DNA from: Synechococcales cyanobacterium PMM_0073
GTDB taxonomy: Bacteria > Cyanobacteriota > Cyanobacteriia > Elainellales > Elainellaceae
Assembly: GCA_949127695.1 (NCBI GenBank)
Contig: CASBQH010000084.1
Coordinates: 1-14,369 of the forward strand
DNA length: 14,369 bases
Direction: 5' to 3'
Shown here: piece after piece, positions 1,851-12,141 of the stretch
Position numbering within the stretch: position 1 is the stretch's first letter
Layout of the letters: the number at the start of each line of letters is the position of its first letter
Made by a program: the position numbers and the translations under genes
Notes under the pieces: generated by a model
Told to the model about the DNA's origin: nothing
The model's database searches: none
Seen by the model: only the letters and a program-made list of their open reading frames with translations

Positions 1851-1862
1851 ACTTTGCCGCTT

Positions 1863-1867
1863 GGAGG
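1863..1867 (+). promoter_or_regulatory. Shine-Dalgarno that fixes the asd TTG start
   Basis: GGAGG at 1863-1867 has a 5-nt spacer to TTG 1873. It overlaps the region immediately after the alternative TTG at 1861, which therefore could not use it. Confidence 0.8.
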
Positions 1868-1872
1868 ATTCC

Positions 1873-2925
1873 TTGCCCCGTTCATATCGCATCGCTATTT
1901 TGGGCGCAACTGGCGCAGTGGGGACAGAGCTACTTCAGCTGTTGGCTGAGCGGCAGTTTCCAATTGCCGAACTGAAGCTGCTGGCCTCTGAGCGCTCCGC
2001 AGGGCAAACTTTAGAATTCAAAGGCGAAAAGCTGACCGTAGAGCCAGTTAAATCTGGGGCGTTTGCTGGCATCGATCTGGTGCTGGCCTCAGCCGGAGGC
2101 TCAATTTCCAAAGCCTGGGCGAAAGAAATTGTGGCGGCTGGAGCCGTGATGATCGACAACTCCAGCGCCTTTCGGATGGCTGCTGATGTGCCGCTGATTG
2201 TGCCGGAGATCAATCCAGAAGCCGCCGCCCAGCATCACGGCATTATCGCTAACCCCAACTGCTCGACGATTGTGATGGCGGTGGCGGTCTATCCGCTGCA
2301 TCAAGTCCAGCCGATTCAGCGGATTGTGGTAGCCACCTATCAGGCCGCCAGCGGAGCCGGAGCGCGAGCGATGGAAGAAGCCAAAACTCAGTCGCTGGCC
2401 GTGCTGCAAGGCCAGCAGCCTGTGCCCGAAATTTTCCCGCATCAGATTGCCTTCAACGTGTTTCCGCATAATTCGCCGCTAAATGAGCTAGGCTACTGCG
2501 AAGAAGAAATGAAAATGGTGCTGGAAACCCGCAAAATTTTCGCAGAGCCAAATCTGCGCGTCACGGCCACCTGCGTCAGAGTTCCGGTGCTGCGCGCCCA
2601 TTCGGAGGCGATCAATCTAGAGTTTGCGGCTCCGTTTGACGTGGCACAAGCCCGCGATATCTTAAGTAAGGCTTCCGGCGTGAAGCTGGTCGAAGACTGG
2701 CAGGCCAATCACTTTCCGATGCCCGTCGAGGCTAGCGGTATCGATGAGGTGCTGGTAGGCCGCATCCGCCAGGATATTTCGCATCCCAACGGCCTAGAGC
2801 TGTGGCTGAGCGGCGATCAAATCCGCAAGGGCGCAGCGCTCAACGCCGTGCAGATTGCCGAACTGCTGCATGAAAAAGACCTGCTGCGTCCGGCGGCTCT
2901 AGCAGGGCAGGCGAAAATTAGTTGA
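1873..2925 (+). CDS. asd: Aspartate-semialdehyde dehydrogenase
   Basis: This enzyme reduces aspartyl-4-phosphate to aspartate 4-semialdehyde with NADPH, the branch point for lysine/diaminopimelate and threonine/methionine. The N-terminal NADP-binding loop reads GATGAVG (residues 11-17). The catalytic cysteine is Cys130 in NPNCSTI, and the substrate-binding elements SGAGARAMEE and the HSEAINLEF strand follow. The reading frame extends upstream to a TTG at 1861, but that codon sits immediately before a perfect GGAGG (1863-1867). This Shine-Dalgarno has a 5-nt spacer to a second in-frame TTG at 1873, so I choose TTG 1873 (350 aa). No in-frame ATG competes, and homologues begin at about this point. 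dapA follows 100 bp downstream on the same strand, and the two genes are probably cotranscribed. Divergent from tig across 240 bp. Confidence 0.96.
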   Translation: MPRSYRIAILGATGAVGTELLQLLAERQFPIAELKLLASERSAGQTLEFKGEKLTVEPVKSGAFAGIDLVLASAGGSISKAWAKEIVAAGAVMIDNSSAFRMAADVPLIVPEINPEAAAQHHGIIANPNCSTIVMAVAVYPLHQVQPIQRIVVATYQAASGAGARAMEEAKTQSLAVLQGQQPVPEIFPHQIAFNVFPHNSPLNELGYCEEEMKMVLETRKIFAEPNLRVTATCVRVPVLRAHSEAINLEFAAPFDVAQARDILSKASGVKLVEDWQANHFPMPVEASGIDEVLVGRIRQDISHPNGLELWLSGDQIRKGAALNAVQIAELLHEKDLLRPAALAGQAKIS

Positions 2926-2963
2926 ATCAGGATGGCTGAATTAAAGTTTTAGATTGGAGATTT

Positions 2964-3029
2964 ATGCTTATGATCAGGGCTCGAAGCATTTCAACCATGG
3001 ATTTCACCGGAGGAAGCTCGCAAGCGTGA
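2964..3029 (+). CDS. Possible 21-residue leader peptide overlapping the dapA start
   Basis: An ATG at 2964 is preceded by GGAGA (2956-2960) at good spacing. It opens 21 sense codons: Met-Leu-Met-Ile-Arg-Ala-Arg, then an Ser/Thr/Gly-rich end. The stop TGA at 3027-3029 overlaps the GTG start of dapA (3026-3028) in a GTGA arrangement typical of translational coupling. No function is recognisable from the peptide: it has no run of regulatory amino acids such as Lys, Met or Thr and no attenuator hairpin. It may be a coupling leader for dapA or a chance ORF. The sequence shows the ORF, its RBS-like element and the overlap. Coupling is inference. Confidence 0.35.
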
Positions 3030-3919
3030 CGATTTTTGGGCGCGTAATGACTGCAATGGTGACACCCTTTAACTCAGAGGGCGGCGTTGACTACGCGACG
3101 GCTGAAGCACTGGCCGCTCACTTGGCTAATCAGGGCAGCGATACGCTGGTCGTCTGCGGCACGACTGGCGAGTCGCCAACGCTGAGCTGGGACGAGGAAT
3201 TTACCTTGTTTCAGGCCGTACAGCAGGCCGTAGCAGGACGCGCTAAAGTAGTAGCAGGGACTGGATCTAATTCCACTTCTGAAGCAATTTCCGCCACAGA
3301 GCAGGCAAATAAGCTAAGATTAGATGGAACGCTGCAAGTCGTTCCTTACTACAACAAGCCACCCCAAGAAGGTCTGTATCAGCATTTTCGGGCAATTGCG
3401 GAGTCCAATCCAGATTTGCCGATGATTCTGTATAATGTGCCGGGGCGCACCAGCCAGAATTTACTCCCTGAAACCGTCAGCCGCTTAGCTGAGATTCCTA
3501 ATATTGTGGCAGTAAAGGAGGCCAGTGGGAACCTTGATCAGGTGAGTCAAATCCGTCGATCTACGCCAAGTAGCTTTGACATCTATTCAGGCGACGACTC
3601 TCTCACGCTGCCGATGCTGGCAGTTGGAGCACAGGGTGTGGTCAGCGTCGCGAGTCATTTAGTGGGTGACAGACTCCAACAGATGATTGCCGCGTTTGAG
3701 CAAGGGCAGGTACAGGCTGCAACTCAAATCCATCTCCAGTTATTTCCCCTGTTTAAGGCATTGTTCCATGTGACAAACCCAATCCCGGTCAAGGCTGCAC
3801 TAGCAATGCAGGGCTGGAGCGTGGGTGGAACGAGACTGCCGCTGGCCGACAAATCTGAAAATCTGAGTCAGATTTTGCACAGCGTCTTAACTGAGCTAGA
3901 GCTTCTGAAAATTGGCTAA
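3026..3919 (+). CDS. dapA: 4-hydroxy-tetrahydrodipicolinate synthase (dihydrodipicolinate synthase)
   Basis: DapA condenses aspartate 4-semialdehyde with pyruvate, the committed step to lysine and to diaminopimelate for peptidoglycan. The TIM-barrel signatures are all present. GTTGES at 45-50 includes Thr46/Thr47, VVPYYNKP contains Tyr109, ILYNVPGRT has Tyr136 and Arg141, and VAVKEASGN has the Schiff-base Lys164. The open frame reaches a TTG at 2954, but the first 24 codons do not resemble the family. Homologues begin close to the FGRV.TAMVTPF strand. I therefore choose the GTG at 3026 (297 aa, the normal family length). GGAGG at 3009-3013 lies 12 nt upstream, slightly far. The gene follows asd, which supplies its substrate. 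Its start overlaps the stop of a small upstream ORF, so translation may be coupled. Confidence 0.95.
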
Positions 3920-4000
3920 TGCGCCAAATCAAACCGCTTGAACCTCAACCCCAGATTTTTGACAACTGAATAGCTGATCTTCACACCCCATCCATTTTTC

Positions 4001-4061
4001 GAGGCGCTCTCTTGAGGCGTATCTCTGGCATGGGCTGCACAGCCCATTGAGGCTCTGAGGC
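4001..4061. repeat. Stem-loop flanked by GAGGC copies, between dapA and rnj
   Basis: ATGGGCT (4030-4036) and AGCCCAT (4041-4047) form a perfect 7-bp stem with loop GCAC. GAGGC occurs at 4001, 4014, 4049-4053 and 4057-4061, twice on each side. No T-tract follows, so this is unlikely to be a simple intrinsic terminator for dapA. It could be an RNA-processing element or operator in the 239-bp gap before rnj. Confidence 0.45.
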
Positions 4062-4090
4062 AGATCAGCAATCCAAATCTCAGATAGATC

Positions 4091-4111
4091 TCCGCACAGA
4101 TTTCCGCACAG
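4091..4111. repeat. Two direct copies of TCCGCACAG upstream of rnj
   Basis: TCCGCACAG is at 4091-4099 and again at 4103-4111, a 12-bp period, ending 47 nt before the rnj ATG. The spacing is close to one helical turn, as for a dimeric regulator site, but no known motif is recognised. Confidence 0.45.
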
Positions 4112-4158
4112 TCTAAATAGACAAATTTCTCAAAACCACAACTTAGTAAAGGATAAGC

Positions 4159-5688
4159 ATGAGTCAAATCGATTCTTCAAACGCCCTCAAAATTATTCCG
4201 CTCGGCGGACTCCACGAAATTGGCAAAAACACCTGCGTCTTTGAATACAACGACGAAATCGTCCTGCTAGACGCGGGCTTGGCCTTTCCCACCGACGGAA
4301 TGCACGGCGTTAACGTGGTGCTGCCCGACATGACCTACCTGCGCGAAAACCGCCACAAAATTCGCGGCATGATCGTGACGCATGGTCATGAAGACCATAT
4401 CGGCGGCATCGCCTTTCACCTCAAGCAGTTCGATATTCCGGTGATCTATGGCCCCAGGCTGGCGATGGCGCTGCTCAAAGACAAGCTGGCCGAAGCAGGG
4501 GTATCTGACCGCACCAAGCTACATACCGTTTCGCCGCGTCAGGTGGTGAGAATCAGCCCCTCGATTTTGGTGGAATATATCCGCAACACCCACTCAATGG
4601 CGGACAGCTTCACGGTGGCGCTGCATACCCCCGTCGGCGTGGTGATCCATACCGGCGACTTCAAAATTGACCATACGCCCGTAGACGGCGAGCTGTTTGA
4701 CTTCCAGCGCTTGGCTGAGCATGGCGAAAAAGGCGTGCTTTGCCTGATTAGCGACTCAACCAACTCAGAAATTCCCGGCTTTACGCCCTCCGAGCGGGCG
4801 GTTTATCCCAACCTGGATCGCGTCTTTTCGCAGGCCAAAGGGCGGCTGCTCGTCACCACCTTTGCCTCCTCGGTGCATCGGGTCAATATGATCTTGGATC
4901 TGGCTAAGAAAAATGGGCGCGTGGTTTCGGTCGTGGGTCGCTCCATGCTGAACGTGATCGCCCATGCCCGTAACTTAGGCTACATCCAGTGTCAGGACGA
5001 CCTGTTTGTGCCGCTGAACATGCTGAACAAGGTGCCAGATGAGAACGTGCTGATTCTCACCACCGGATCGCAGGGCGAGCCAATGGCGGCGCTGACTCGG
5101 ATTGCCAACAGTGAGCATCGGATGCTGGTCAAGCACTCACAAACGGCTCAGAGTATGAACATTCCAGCCGAGAATATGGTGATCATCAACAACGGCGACG
5201 TGGTGGCGCTAAGCCCCGACAGCATTCGCGTGGCGGGTAAAGTGCCTTCTGGAATTGAGCTAGTCGATTCCTCGCAGTCTGGCATGGTGAATCAGCGGGT
5301 GCTGAAAGAGCGGCAGCAGCTGGCTGAAGACGGCATTATTACCGTAGCGGCGGCGATTGGCTGGAATGGCCAATGGGCGGCTAAGCCAGAAGTGCATCTG
5401 CGCGGCGTGGCCACAGCCATCGAAAAGTCGAAGCTAGAGCAGCAAATTGTCAGAACAATTGAGTCTGTGGTGCGCGACCGCTGGGACGACCAGAAGCAGC
5501 CCGTAACGACCGGAGCCGAAATCGACTGGATTCGGCTTAAAGACGAAATCGAAGCCTCGCTGCGTCGGATGCTGCGCCGCGAGCTGCAAAACAACCCTAC
5601 CGTGGTATTCCTGCTGCAACCCCCCGCCGAACCCCCGGCAGCACTGGCAGGTAGAAGGCAGCGTTCTTCCGCTAAGGTCGCCTCCTAG
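4159..5688 (+). CDS. rnj: Ribonuclease J with an apparent internal deletion in the beta-CASP domain
   Basis: RNase J is a zinc-dependent 5'-3' exo/endoribonuclease of the metallo-beta-lactamase/beta-CASP family, central to cyanobacterial mRNA decay and rRNA processing. The ATG at 4159 has AAGGA (4149-4153) upstream. Present are the conserved PLGGLHEIGKN start, the zinc motif THGHEDH (His75, His77, Asp79, His80), His145 in NTHS, Asp167 in GDFK and Asp199 in SDSTN. The VGRSM region, LTTGSQGEPMAALTRIA and the C-terminal KVPSGIELVD domain also remain. After Glu319-His320 the protein jumps straight to RMLVKHSQTAQ. Family members have about 60 further residues here, including a GDTVVFSA/IPGN segment, HxSGH and PVHGE, none of which I find. 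At 509 aa it is shorter than the usual roughly 550 or more. The frame is intact on both sides. Nuclease activity is doubtful. A terminator lies 31 nt downstream. Family identity is certain; the lesion is inferred from remembered family sequences. Confidence 0.93.
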   Translation: MSQIDSSNALKIIPLGGLHEIGKNTCVFEYNDEIVLLDAGLAFPTDGMHGVNVVLPDMTYLRENRHKIRGMIVTHGHEDHIGGIAFHLKQFDIPVIYGPRLAMALLKDKLAEAGVSDRTKLHTVSPRQVVRISPSILVEYIRNTHSMADSFTVALHTPVGVVIHTGDFKIDHTPVDGELFDFQRLAEHGEKGVLCLISDSTNSEIPGFTPSERAVYPNLDRVFSQAKGRLLVTTFASSVHRVNMILDLAKKNGRVVSVVGRSMLNVIAHARNLGYIQCQDDLFVPLNMLNKVPDENVLILTTGSQGEPMAALTRIANSEHRMLVKHSQTAQSMNIPAENMVIINNGDVVALSPDSIRVAGKVPSGIELVDSSQSGMVNQRVLKERQQLAEDGIITVAAAIGWNGQWAAKPEVHLRGVATAIEKSKLEQQIVRTIESVVRDRWDDQKQPVTTGAEIDWIRLKDEIEASLRRMLRRELQNNPTVVFLLQPPAEPPAALAGRRQRSSAKVAS

Positions 5689-10506: not shown

Positions 10507-12141
10507 GTGGTTGAACTAGAATGTTTGCCCTATGGGGTGGGTCATGCCGATGAAGGCTTGGCCTTGCTGCTGCGGATGGGGTCACATCGAATTCTGCTGG
10601 ACTGCGGTTTGAGCGACCTCAGCCCAGTTTTGGCGCAGGCCGAACCGCCCGCTGACTTAGTGCTGTGCAGCCACGCCCATGCCGACCATGCCAGAGGGCT
10701 GCTGTCGCTGCATCGCGCCTATCCAGGGCTGCCGATCTACGCCAGCGAGCTAACAACCGAGCTATTGCCGCTGAATTGGATTGGCGAAACCGTGCCCCGG
10801 TTTTGTCAGGCGTTGCCCTGGCGAACGCCGCTAGAAGTGCAGCCCGGACTGACTGTGGAGCTAATCCCGGCGGGACATTTGCCGGGAGCGGCGGCGCTCT
10901 TGCTGACCCATCACGGCGACCGTGCCTATACTGCGCTCTATATGGGCGATTTTTTGCTATCTAACTCGCGTCTAGTAGACGGATTTCCGCTGGATGAGCT
11001 GCGCGGACTCAAGCCTGATGTGCTGCTGTTAGAAGGCAGCTATGGCACGGCTCGGTTTCCGCACCGCCGTCAGCAGGAGAATCAGCTGGCCGAACGAATT
11101 CACCGCGCTGTCTCGGCAGGGCAGTCGGTGCTGCTGCCAACAACCACGCTGGGGCTGGGGCAAGAATTGCTGATGCTGTTACGCAGCCACCATCACTTTA
11201 CGGGGCGCGATCTCGATATTTGGGTAGATGGCAGCGTAGCGCTGGGCTGCGATATCTATCTCGAAATGCTGGATCACTTTCCCGATGCGGTACAGAACTT
11301 TGCGCGGCATCAGGCGCTGTTTTGGGATGAGCGGATTCGACCTCGGCTACGGCGATTTGGGATAGCTACAGCCCTCAAGGCTCCGGCGGTGGTGCTGACT
11401 AGCCAGGATGCCGATTTAACCCGCTACTGTCAGCCTGACGCTCCGCCCGAAACCTCCTGGCTGCTGCTGCTGCCCCAGCAACCTGGTCGGCTGGGTGAGG
11501 TGGAGCGCAGGGTGATGCAGCAGTTGGAAGCTTCAGCGTTACTTCAGCAGATGCGGCAATCGGGACAGCTAACCGTGGAAACCTATCTGCTGGGCGATCA
11601 CTGCGACGGGGCAGGCACGACGCAGCTGATCCACAATCTGCGGCCTCAGCATGTCTTGCTGACGCATGGTTCGCCCAGCTATCTAAGCGATTTGACCAGC
11701 TTGGAAGAACTACAAAATCGCTACCAGCTACATAGCCCTGCTGCCGGAATGCGGGTAGCCTTGCCCATTGGCGAGCGGTTTTTGCAGCCTGCCGCGCCTG
11801 AGATTCGTCCTGATTTGCGCTACGAAGGTGGATTAGTCGAACTCGAAACGGCGGTGATGATTAGCTTGCCAGATGCGATCCGCGCCCATCCCCGCTGGCA
11901 GGAGTTTGCCGATACGGGTTTGGTCGAAGCTCGCTGGCAGGGCGAAGAATTGGTGCTGCGGAGCCTCAGCCAGCAAGAATTGCTCAGCCAAGCCGAGGAA
12001 GAACCAGAAGCCAGCGAAATCCCCTGCTGCCAGAACTGCCTGCACTGTCGAGGGCAGCGCTGCCGCAATCCAGAATCGCCGCTGTTCAGCCTTAAAGTGA
12101 CGCTGGACGGCTGCTGCCCAATGTTTGAACTGCCTGTTTGA
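10507..12141 (+). CDS. MBL-fold beta-CASP metallo-hydrolase (CPSF/RNase-like) with Cys-rich C-terminus
   Basis: This 544-residue protein starts with GTG 10507. The metallo-beta-lactamase core has CSHAHADHARG (His56, His58, Asp60, His61), AGHLPGAA (His124) and YMGDF (Asp148). The beta-CASP insertion carries motif A LLLEGSYG (Glu176), motif B-like GDHCDGAG (His365) and motif C LTHGSPSYLSDL (His387). The family includes CPSF-73 and bacterial RNases, so an RNA endo/exonuclease is likely; the substrate is unknown. After about residue 440 comes an extra alpha/beta segment. It ends in a cysteine cluster (507, 508, 511, 514, 519, 536, 537) in the pattern CCx2Cx2Cx4C...CC, followed by PMF. This probably binds zinc or an Fe-S cluster. 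GAGAGGGG lies 4 nt upstream. The 40-residue membrane gene precedes it by 30 bp, and the gene is convergent with the oxygenase 12 bp away. Confidence 0.9.
   Translation: MVELECLPYGVGHADEGLALLLRMGSHRILLDCGLSDLSPVLAQAEPPADLVLCSHAHADHARGLLSLHRAYPGLPIYASELTTELLPLNWIGETVPRFCQALPWRTPLEVQPGLTVELIPAGHLPGAAALLLTHHGDRAYTALYMGDFLLSNSRLVDGFPLDELRGLKPDVLLLEGSYGTARFPHRRQQENQLAERIHRAVSAGQSVLLPTTTLGLGQELLMLLRSHHHFTGRDLDIWVDGSVALGCDIYLEMLDHFPDAVQNFARHQALFWDERIRPRLRRFGIATALKAPAVVLTSQDADLTRYCQPDAPPETSWLLLLPQQPGRLGEVERRVMQQLEASALLQQMRQSGQLTVETYLLGDHCDGAGTTQLIHNLRPQHVLLTHGSPSYLSDLTSLEELQNRYQLHSPAAGMRVALPIGERFLQPAAPEIRPDLRYEGGLVELETAVMISLPDAIRAHPRWQEFADTGLVEARWQGEELVLRSLSQQELLSQAEEEPEASEIPCCQNCLHCRGQRCRNPESPLFSLKVTLDGCCPMFELPV

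Follow-up and report, generated by a model that had tools for sequence, protein, structure and literature searches.

The rnj gene in this DNA encodes an RNase J that appears to lack part of its beta-CASP segment, and this raises the question of whether a cyanobacterium carries a new kind of RNase J or whether an ordinary gene has been joined wrongly. The window, that is, the whole stretch of DNA that was analysed, is the entire contig C84 (14,369 bp). A sequence-only reading of it had proposed a clean in-frame loss in rnj. DNA alignment with Pegethrix bostrychoides GSE-TBD4-15B, the nearest relative found, confirmed this loss; the RNase J of this relative has 585 aa and served as the reference for the coordinates of the loss. 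Most likely, as argued below, two short look-alikes were joined, either falsely or very recently, and the short form is not a new kind of enzyme. The gene and its parts are as follows.

4159..5688, + strand: rnj, the RNase J open reading frame in its short form, 509 aa (TIGR00649; Pfam RNase_J_b_CASP and RNase_J_C)
4159..5112, + strand: intact N-terminal part, codons 1-318, with the MBL domain and the first part of beta-CASP (dN/dS values; MBL residues invariant)
5113..5121, + strand: junction GAG CAT CGG, Glu319-His320-Arg321, lying within both alignment blocks, where 231 bp of the relative are missing (BLASTN overlap; 120-protein alignment)
5122..5685, + strand: intact C-terminal part including RNase_J_C (dN/dS values; PF17770 at residues 381-485)

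An NCBIfam search assigned the ORF to TIGR00649 with 549.8 bits (cut-off 400), the match falling in two stretches, and 486 of the 508 residues aligned with P. bostrychoides RNase J are identical. BLASTN gave two blocks: the first pairs nt 1-963 of the ORF with the same positions of the reference, and the second begins at ORF nt 955 and reference nt 1186. The deletion relative to P. bostrychoides is exactly 231 bp, or 77 codons, and in frame; the earlier estimate of about 60 residues (180-190 bp) was too low. The two BLASTN blocks share GAGCATCGG (5113-5121) and the join lies inside it, which bears out the position proposed from the sequence. The rnj of P. bostrychoides has GCGAGCATCGG as its left site and GCGAGCACCGG as its right site; 10 of 11 bases are equal and the longest exact run is 7 bp, a likeness measured in P. 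bostrychoides, as the right-hand site is absent from the window's own sequence. Glu-His-Arg is encoded at both ends of the deletion, in agreement with the suggestion that the loss took place at a short Glu-His look-alike. Deletions by slippage or template switching between short direct repeats cleanly remove one repeat copy and the intervening DNA. The window junction likewise lies inside a look-alike, and may have arisen in the cell or in the library.

In P. bostrychoides numbering, the deleted stretch runs from E319 up to, but not including, E396, and contains HVSGH (368-372) and PVHG (392-395). The 5'-phosphate-binding motif HxSGH of RNase J is absent from the window protein. The window protein has N317 in place of P. 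bostrychoides H394, the counterpart of residue 390 of RNase J1 (3zq4) in the alignment, so that the metal-binding His of PVHGE is also missing. According to PMC7864078, His-390 of Staphylococcus epidermidis RNase J1 binds metal; among the mutants H364A, S366A and H368A, examined there for phosphate recognition, those of Ser-366 and His-368 were impaired. The claim that HxSGH and the His of PVHGE are lost is supported. It had also been claimed that the MBL zinc motifs and the C-terminal domain are intact, and this holds as well: H75, H77, D79, H80, H145 and D167 are all kept and are invariant in a 25-row alignment, and PF17770 (RNase_J_C) matches residues 381-485 of the window protein with 47.1 bits. 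PF22505 (RNase_J_b_CASP) matched only at model positions 1-98 of 126, leaving the beta-CASP/RMMBL segment incomplete, and RMMBL (PF07521) is listed for P. bostrychoides RNase J and not for the window protein.

AlphaFold2 models of the two proteins were built from alignments of 25 (window protein) and 24 (P. bostrychoides) sequences, which are shallow, so that the comparison is relative only. Mean pLDDT was 61.3 and pTM 0.48 for the window protein, versus 73.2 and 0.68 for P. bostrychoides, and residues 302-342 flanking the join scored below 50. Compared with S. epidermidis RNase J1 (6k6s_A), the window model gave a TMt of 0.49 at 15.2 A rmsd and the P. bostrychoides model 0.87 at 3.8 A. Thus, the window model does not show an intact RNase J fold, as far as prediction from shallow alignments goes; the catalytic core is predicted to be lost in the short form and is reproduced in the model of its full-length relative.

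The window also encodes a different MBL/beta-CASP-like protein of 544 aa (10507-12141, + strand), with a Lactamase_B_2 match, an RMMBL match barely above the cut-off and a Cys-rich C-terminal stretch. Its best NCBIfam matches, aCPSF1 and a ligase-associated exonuclease, are both far below the cut-off. It was also matched in the fetched P. bostrychoides and Elainella loci.

If the short form were inherited, relatives should be informative. We searched 60 genomes including the window's own; of the 59 others, two (G033 and G034) had no match and one (G018) had only the first 167 residues, at a contig end. All 56 measurable relatives carry extra codons at the site: 77 in 54 genomes, 78 in one and 80 in one. 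An inherited short form in close relatives, which the sequence-only reading had allowed for, was found in none of them. Of 7999 scored homologues, the 120 listed include the query; all 119 others likewise keep the segment, filling 70 or more of the 77 gap columns with residues. HxSGH and HGE were present in 109 of 109 fetched loci (29 from the 60-genome search and 80 kept of 212, with partly overlapping genomes); the count depends on the strictness of the scan, since demanding PVHGE found the segment in 84 of the 109 and the looser HGE in all. A degenerate DNA pattern for the joined RIAxxEHRML, which detects joins at this exact site only, occurred in one of 388 genomes of the class, the window's own, and its reversed control gave 0 among the rows listed. 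The protein cluster of the short RNase J has a single member from a single contig. Among the titles found on truncated or deleted beta-CASP RNase J, none was about such a form, although this is no proof of absence. Judged by these sequence comparisons, the missing segment of rnj is not normal divergence.

The rest of rnj is conserved in the usual way. In the comparison with P. bostrychoides, dN is 0.007 and dS 0.503 for the N part (dN/dS about 0.014), and dN is 0.054 and dS 0.84 for the C part (dN/dS about 0.064); eleven other window genes have dN of 0.015-0.105 and dS of 0.659-0.981. At columns at least 95% conserved among 120 proteins, the window protein deviates once (G334N, 13 residues past R321) and P. 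bostrychoides RNase J four times. Neither dN/dS nor these columns gave any sign of decay in the remainder of the gene. An old loss in a gene without a job would be expected to leave more traces; therefore, the loss either happened recently or is not biological. Relaxed selection after the junction was considered, since 19 amino-acid changes fall in the C part and 3 in the N part, which looked uneven. It was not accepted, because at the same columns P. bostrychoides has three odd residues in the C part and the window protein one.

A chimera of two strains at the junction was also considered, as the 5' part of rnj has 90.4% DNA identity to P. bostrychoides and the other large blocks of the contig have 80-86%. 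This was rejected because gene order and divergence are similar on both sides of rnj, because differences are spread across rnj beyond its first ~100 nt, and because the comparison with Elainella likewise shows the N part of RNase J to be better conserved (dN 0.059 versus 0.18); the rejection does not extend to a very close strain. The first 98 nt of rnj (4159-4256) are identical to P. bostrychoides, the synonymous divergence of window genes being 0.50-0.98, and the 38 nt upstream have 13 ungapped differences. No Rfam match was found in the window at gathering scores. The identical stretch is possibly a constrained start region.

In P. bostrychoides rnj, 14 of the 16 exact 9-bp repeat pairs and 44 of the 53 8-bp pairs are spaced in frame, presumably since codons shape the repeats of coding DNA. 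Joins at such repeats will usually be in frame without any selection, and the in-frame state of the loss is weak evidence for biology. The pair at the deletion site is one of 8 in-frame near-repeats of equal grade in that gene. An exact run of at least 10 at the two sites was present in only 2 of the 109 loci.

The draft genome has 3,607,093 bp in 529 contigs and is 77.75% complete. We searched it for a second full-length rnj, as the sequence-only reading had suggested, with the window protein, PF22505 and full-length P. bostrychoides RNase J as queries, and found none in this incomplete draft. A query of 281 bp of P. bostrychoides DNA across the missing segment found both flanks only and no piece of the segment elsewhere in the draft. 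Weak extra matches numbered three for this DNA query (best E 0.0195 over 24 bp) and one for the full-length protein query (E 0.196). From 60 sampled contigs, of which 4 read as N and gave no frames, and from the window, we kept 72 non-overlapping frames with an ortholog-like match, 60 elsewhere (some maybe shadow frames) and 12 in the window; the latter include rnj and at least one shadow frame over it, and hence 11 window genes were counted. None of these 71 other frames lacked more than 12 codons compared with P. bostrychoides. Systemic assembly trouble was therefore rejected, the largest gap apart from rnj being 12 codons. The reverse comparison (91 frames) gave many 'internal stops', which were attributed to stop-to-stop and shadow frames, and it was left out of the results. 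As no sampled contig is smaller than 2707 bp, a short one that carried the intact path may have been left out of the draft.

The contig is otherwise collinear with P. bostrychoides. The order of an asd-like gene, a dapA-like gene and rnj (window 1861-5688; the first two names are a reading of the sequences alone) is conserved in P. bostrychoides, Elainella saxicola and RM1_2_2. Elsewhere, two loci, L183 and L195 (G000 C29 and C41), match P. bostrychoides with a frame change or a break in two, possibly through small indels in one of the two drafts.

Which explanation accounts for these observations? The weights that we give are judgement and were not computed. We consider it probable that this is an ordinary single-copy cyanobacterial rnj that bears a false deletion from the library or the assembly, in this draft only. 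During library amplification or contig building, the end of a molecule or contig would have jumped between the EHR sites, from left to right, as a chimeric read, a template switch or a short-overlap join, and the draft would have retained the jumped sequence; the true RNase J of the organism would then be normal, with about 585 aa. Codons and frame are identical at the two EHR sites, so the product would be in frame without selection. This artefact is favoured because no other occurrence of the form was seen, the gene is essential in a model relative, one copy was found in the draft, the remainder shows no decay and the draft is fragmented. The absence of a similar gap in the 71 compared frames means that the assembly is not generally prone to such errors and counts against it, as do the failure to find fragments of the segment elsewhere, the weakness of the look-alike and the collinearity of the contig. 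The sequence-only reading had offered collapse of a repeat by the assembly as an alternative to a tolerated, crippled enzyme. We favour its artefact alternative, or else a null allele of very recent origin, but not the usual repeat collapse, the sites being only ~9-11 bp. An overlap of such length is shorter than usual assembler word lengths. Plain collapse is therefore unlikely, and a chimeric read, a template switch or a short end-overlap must be assumed.

A possible but clearly less probable explanation is a real, very recent deletion by replication slippage between the EHR sites, giving a null allele in a minority strain or beside intact copies. The junction at a short look-alike, the sampled draft free of a general deletion problem and the undecayed remainder of rnj all fit a recent event. 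According to PMC7283877, rnj deletion could not be driven to full segregation in Synechocystis: disruptions segregated unstably and partially, and wild-type copies persisted beside the disrupted ones. Since Synechocystis can carry mutant and normal rnj together, a null allele could persist beside intact chromosome copies. On the other hand, few members of the population should carry a null allele of an essential gene, so that the assembly should show the intact form, and no carrier independent of this contig was found among the 120 listed of 7999 homologues or in the 388 genomes. It is improbable that the short rnj is a real but dispensable duplicate, with the intact gene hidden in the quarter of the genome that was not assembled or binned. 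At 77.75% completeness, failure to find a second copy does not prove that there is none; however, each matched relative has one rnj locus at E up to 1e-20, split into two matches that are halves of it (G030 and G031 show three pieces and G018 one), and the short copy stands in the same gene order as that of P. bostrychoides and is constrained like a single working copy. Still less credible is an inherited, functional but catalytically crippled RNase J that might serve as a structural or RNA-binding subunit, by analogy with partners of the RNase J2 type. The intact frame, the retained C-terminal domain and purifying selection on the remainder agree with it, and PMC7864078 describes altered active-site residues in S. 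epidermidis RNase J2. But the form turned up in no relative that was examined, the 77.75%-complete draft yielded no partner RNase J, and the short form is modelled with less confidence than its full-length relative. The tolerated structural subunit of the sequence-only reading is thus disfavoured, as every measurable relative keeps the segment and the catalytic core is lost in the model. We regard as least likely that the 509-aa protein, fixed or beside intact copies, contributes to RNA decay as a non-catalytic partner or a regulator while RNase E and other nucleases take over the essential load; it would then be without the 5'-phosphate pocket and the final metal ligand but still have the MBL ligands and the C-terminal domain.

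Compared with full-length cyanobacterial RNase J (P. bostrychoides, Synechocystis slr0551), the window rnj is the same gene with the same neighbours, but its product is without 77 residues including HVSGH and PVHG, and no RMMBL match is listed for it. Firmicute RNase J2 (S. epidermidis, 6k6w) also has an altered active site and has lost equivalents of metal-binding residues of J1, according to PMC7864078. However, RNase J2 keeps the fold, as its solved structure shows, and has a separate J1 beside it, whereas the window protein has lost a segment of the fold and the draft yielded no other RNase J. If real and fixed, the short form would contradict the essentiality of RNase J reported for a cyanobacterium (Synechocystis; PMC7283877), and would show that life without the catalytic pocket of RNase J is possible. 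Most likely, though, rnj of this organism is a caution: a clean in-frame 'domain loss' in a draft can come from a join of stretches that resemble each other at the codon level, and an in-frame product does not guarantee biology, because repeats are mostly spaced in frame in the one rnj examined.
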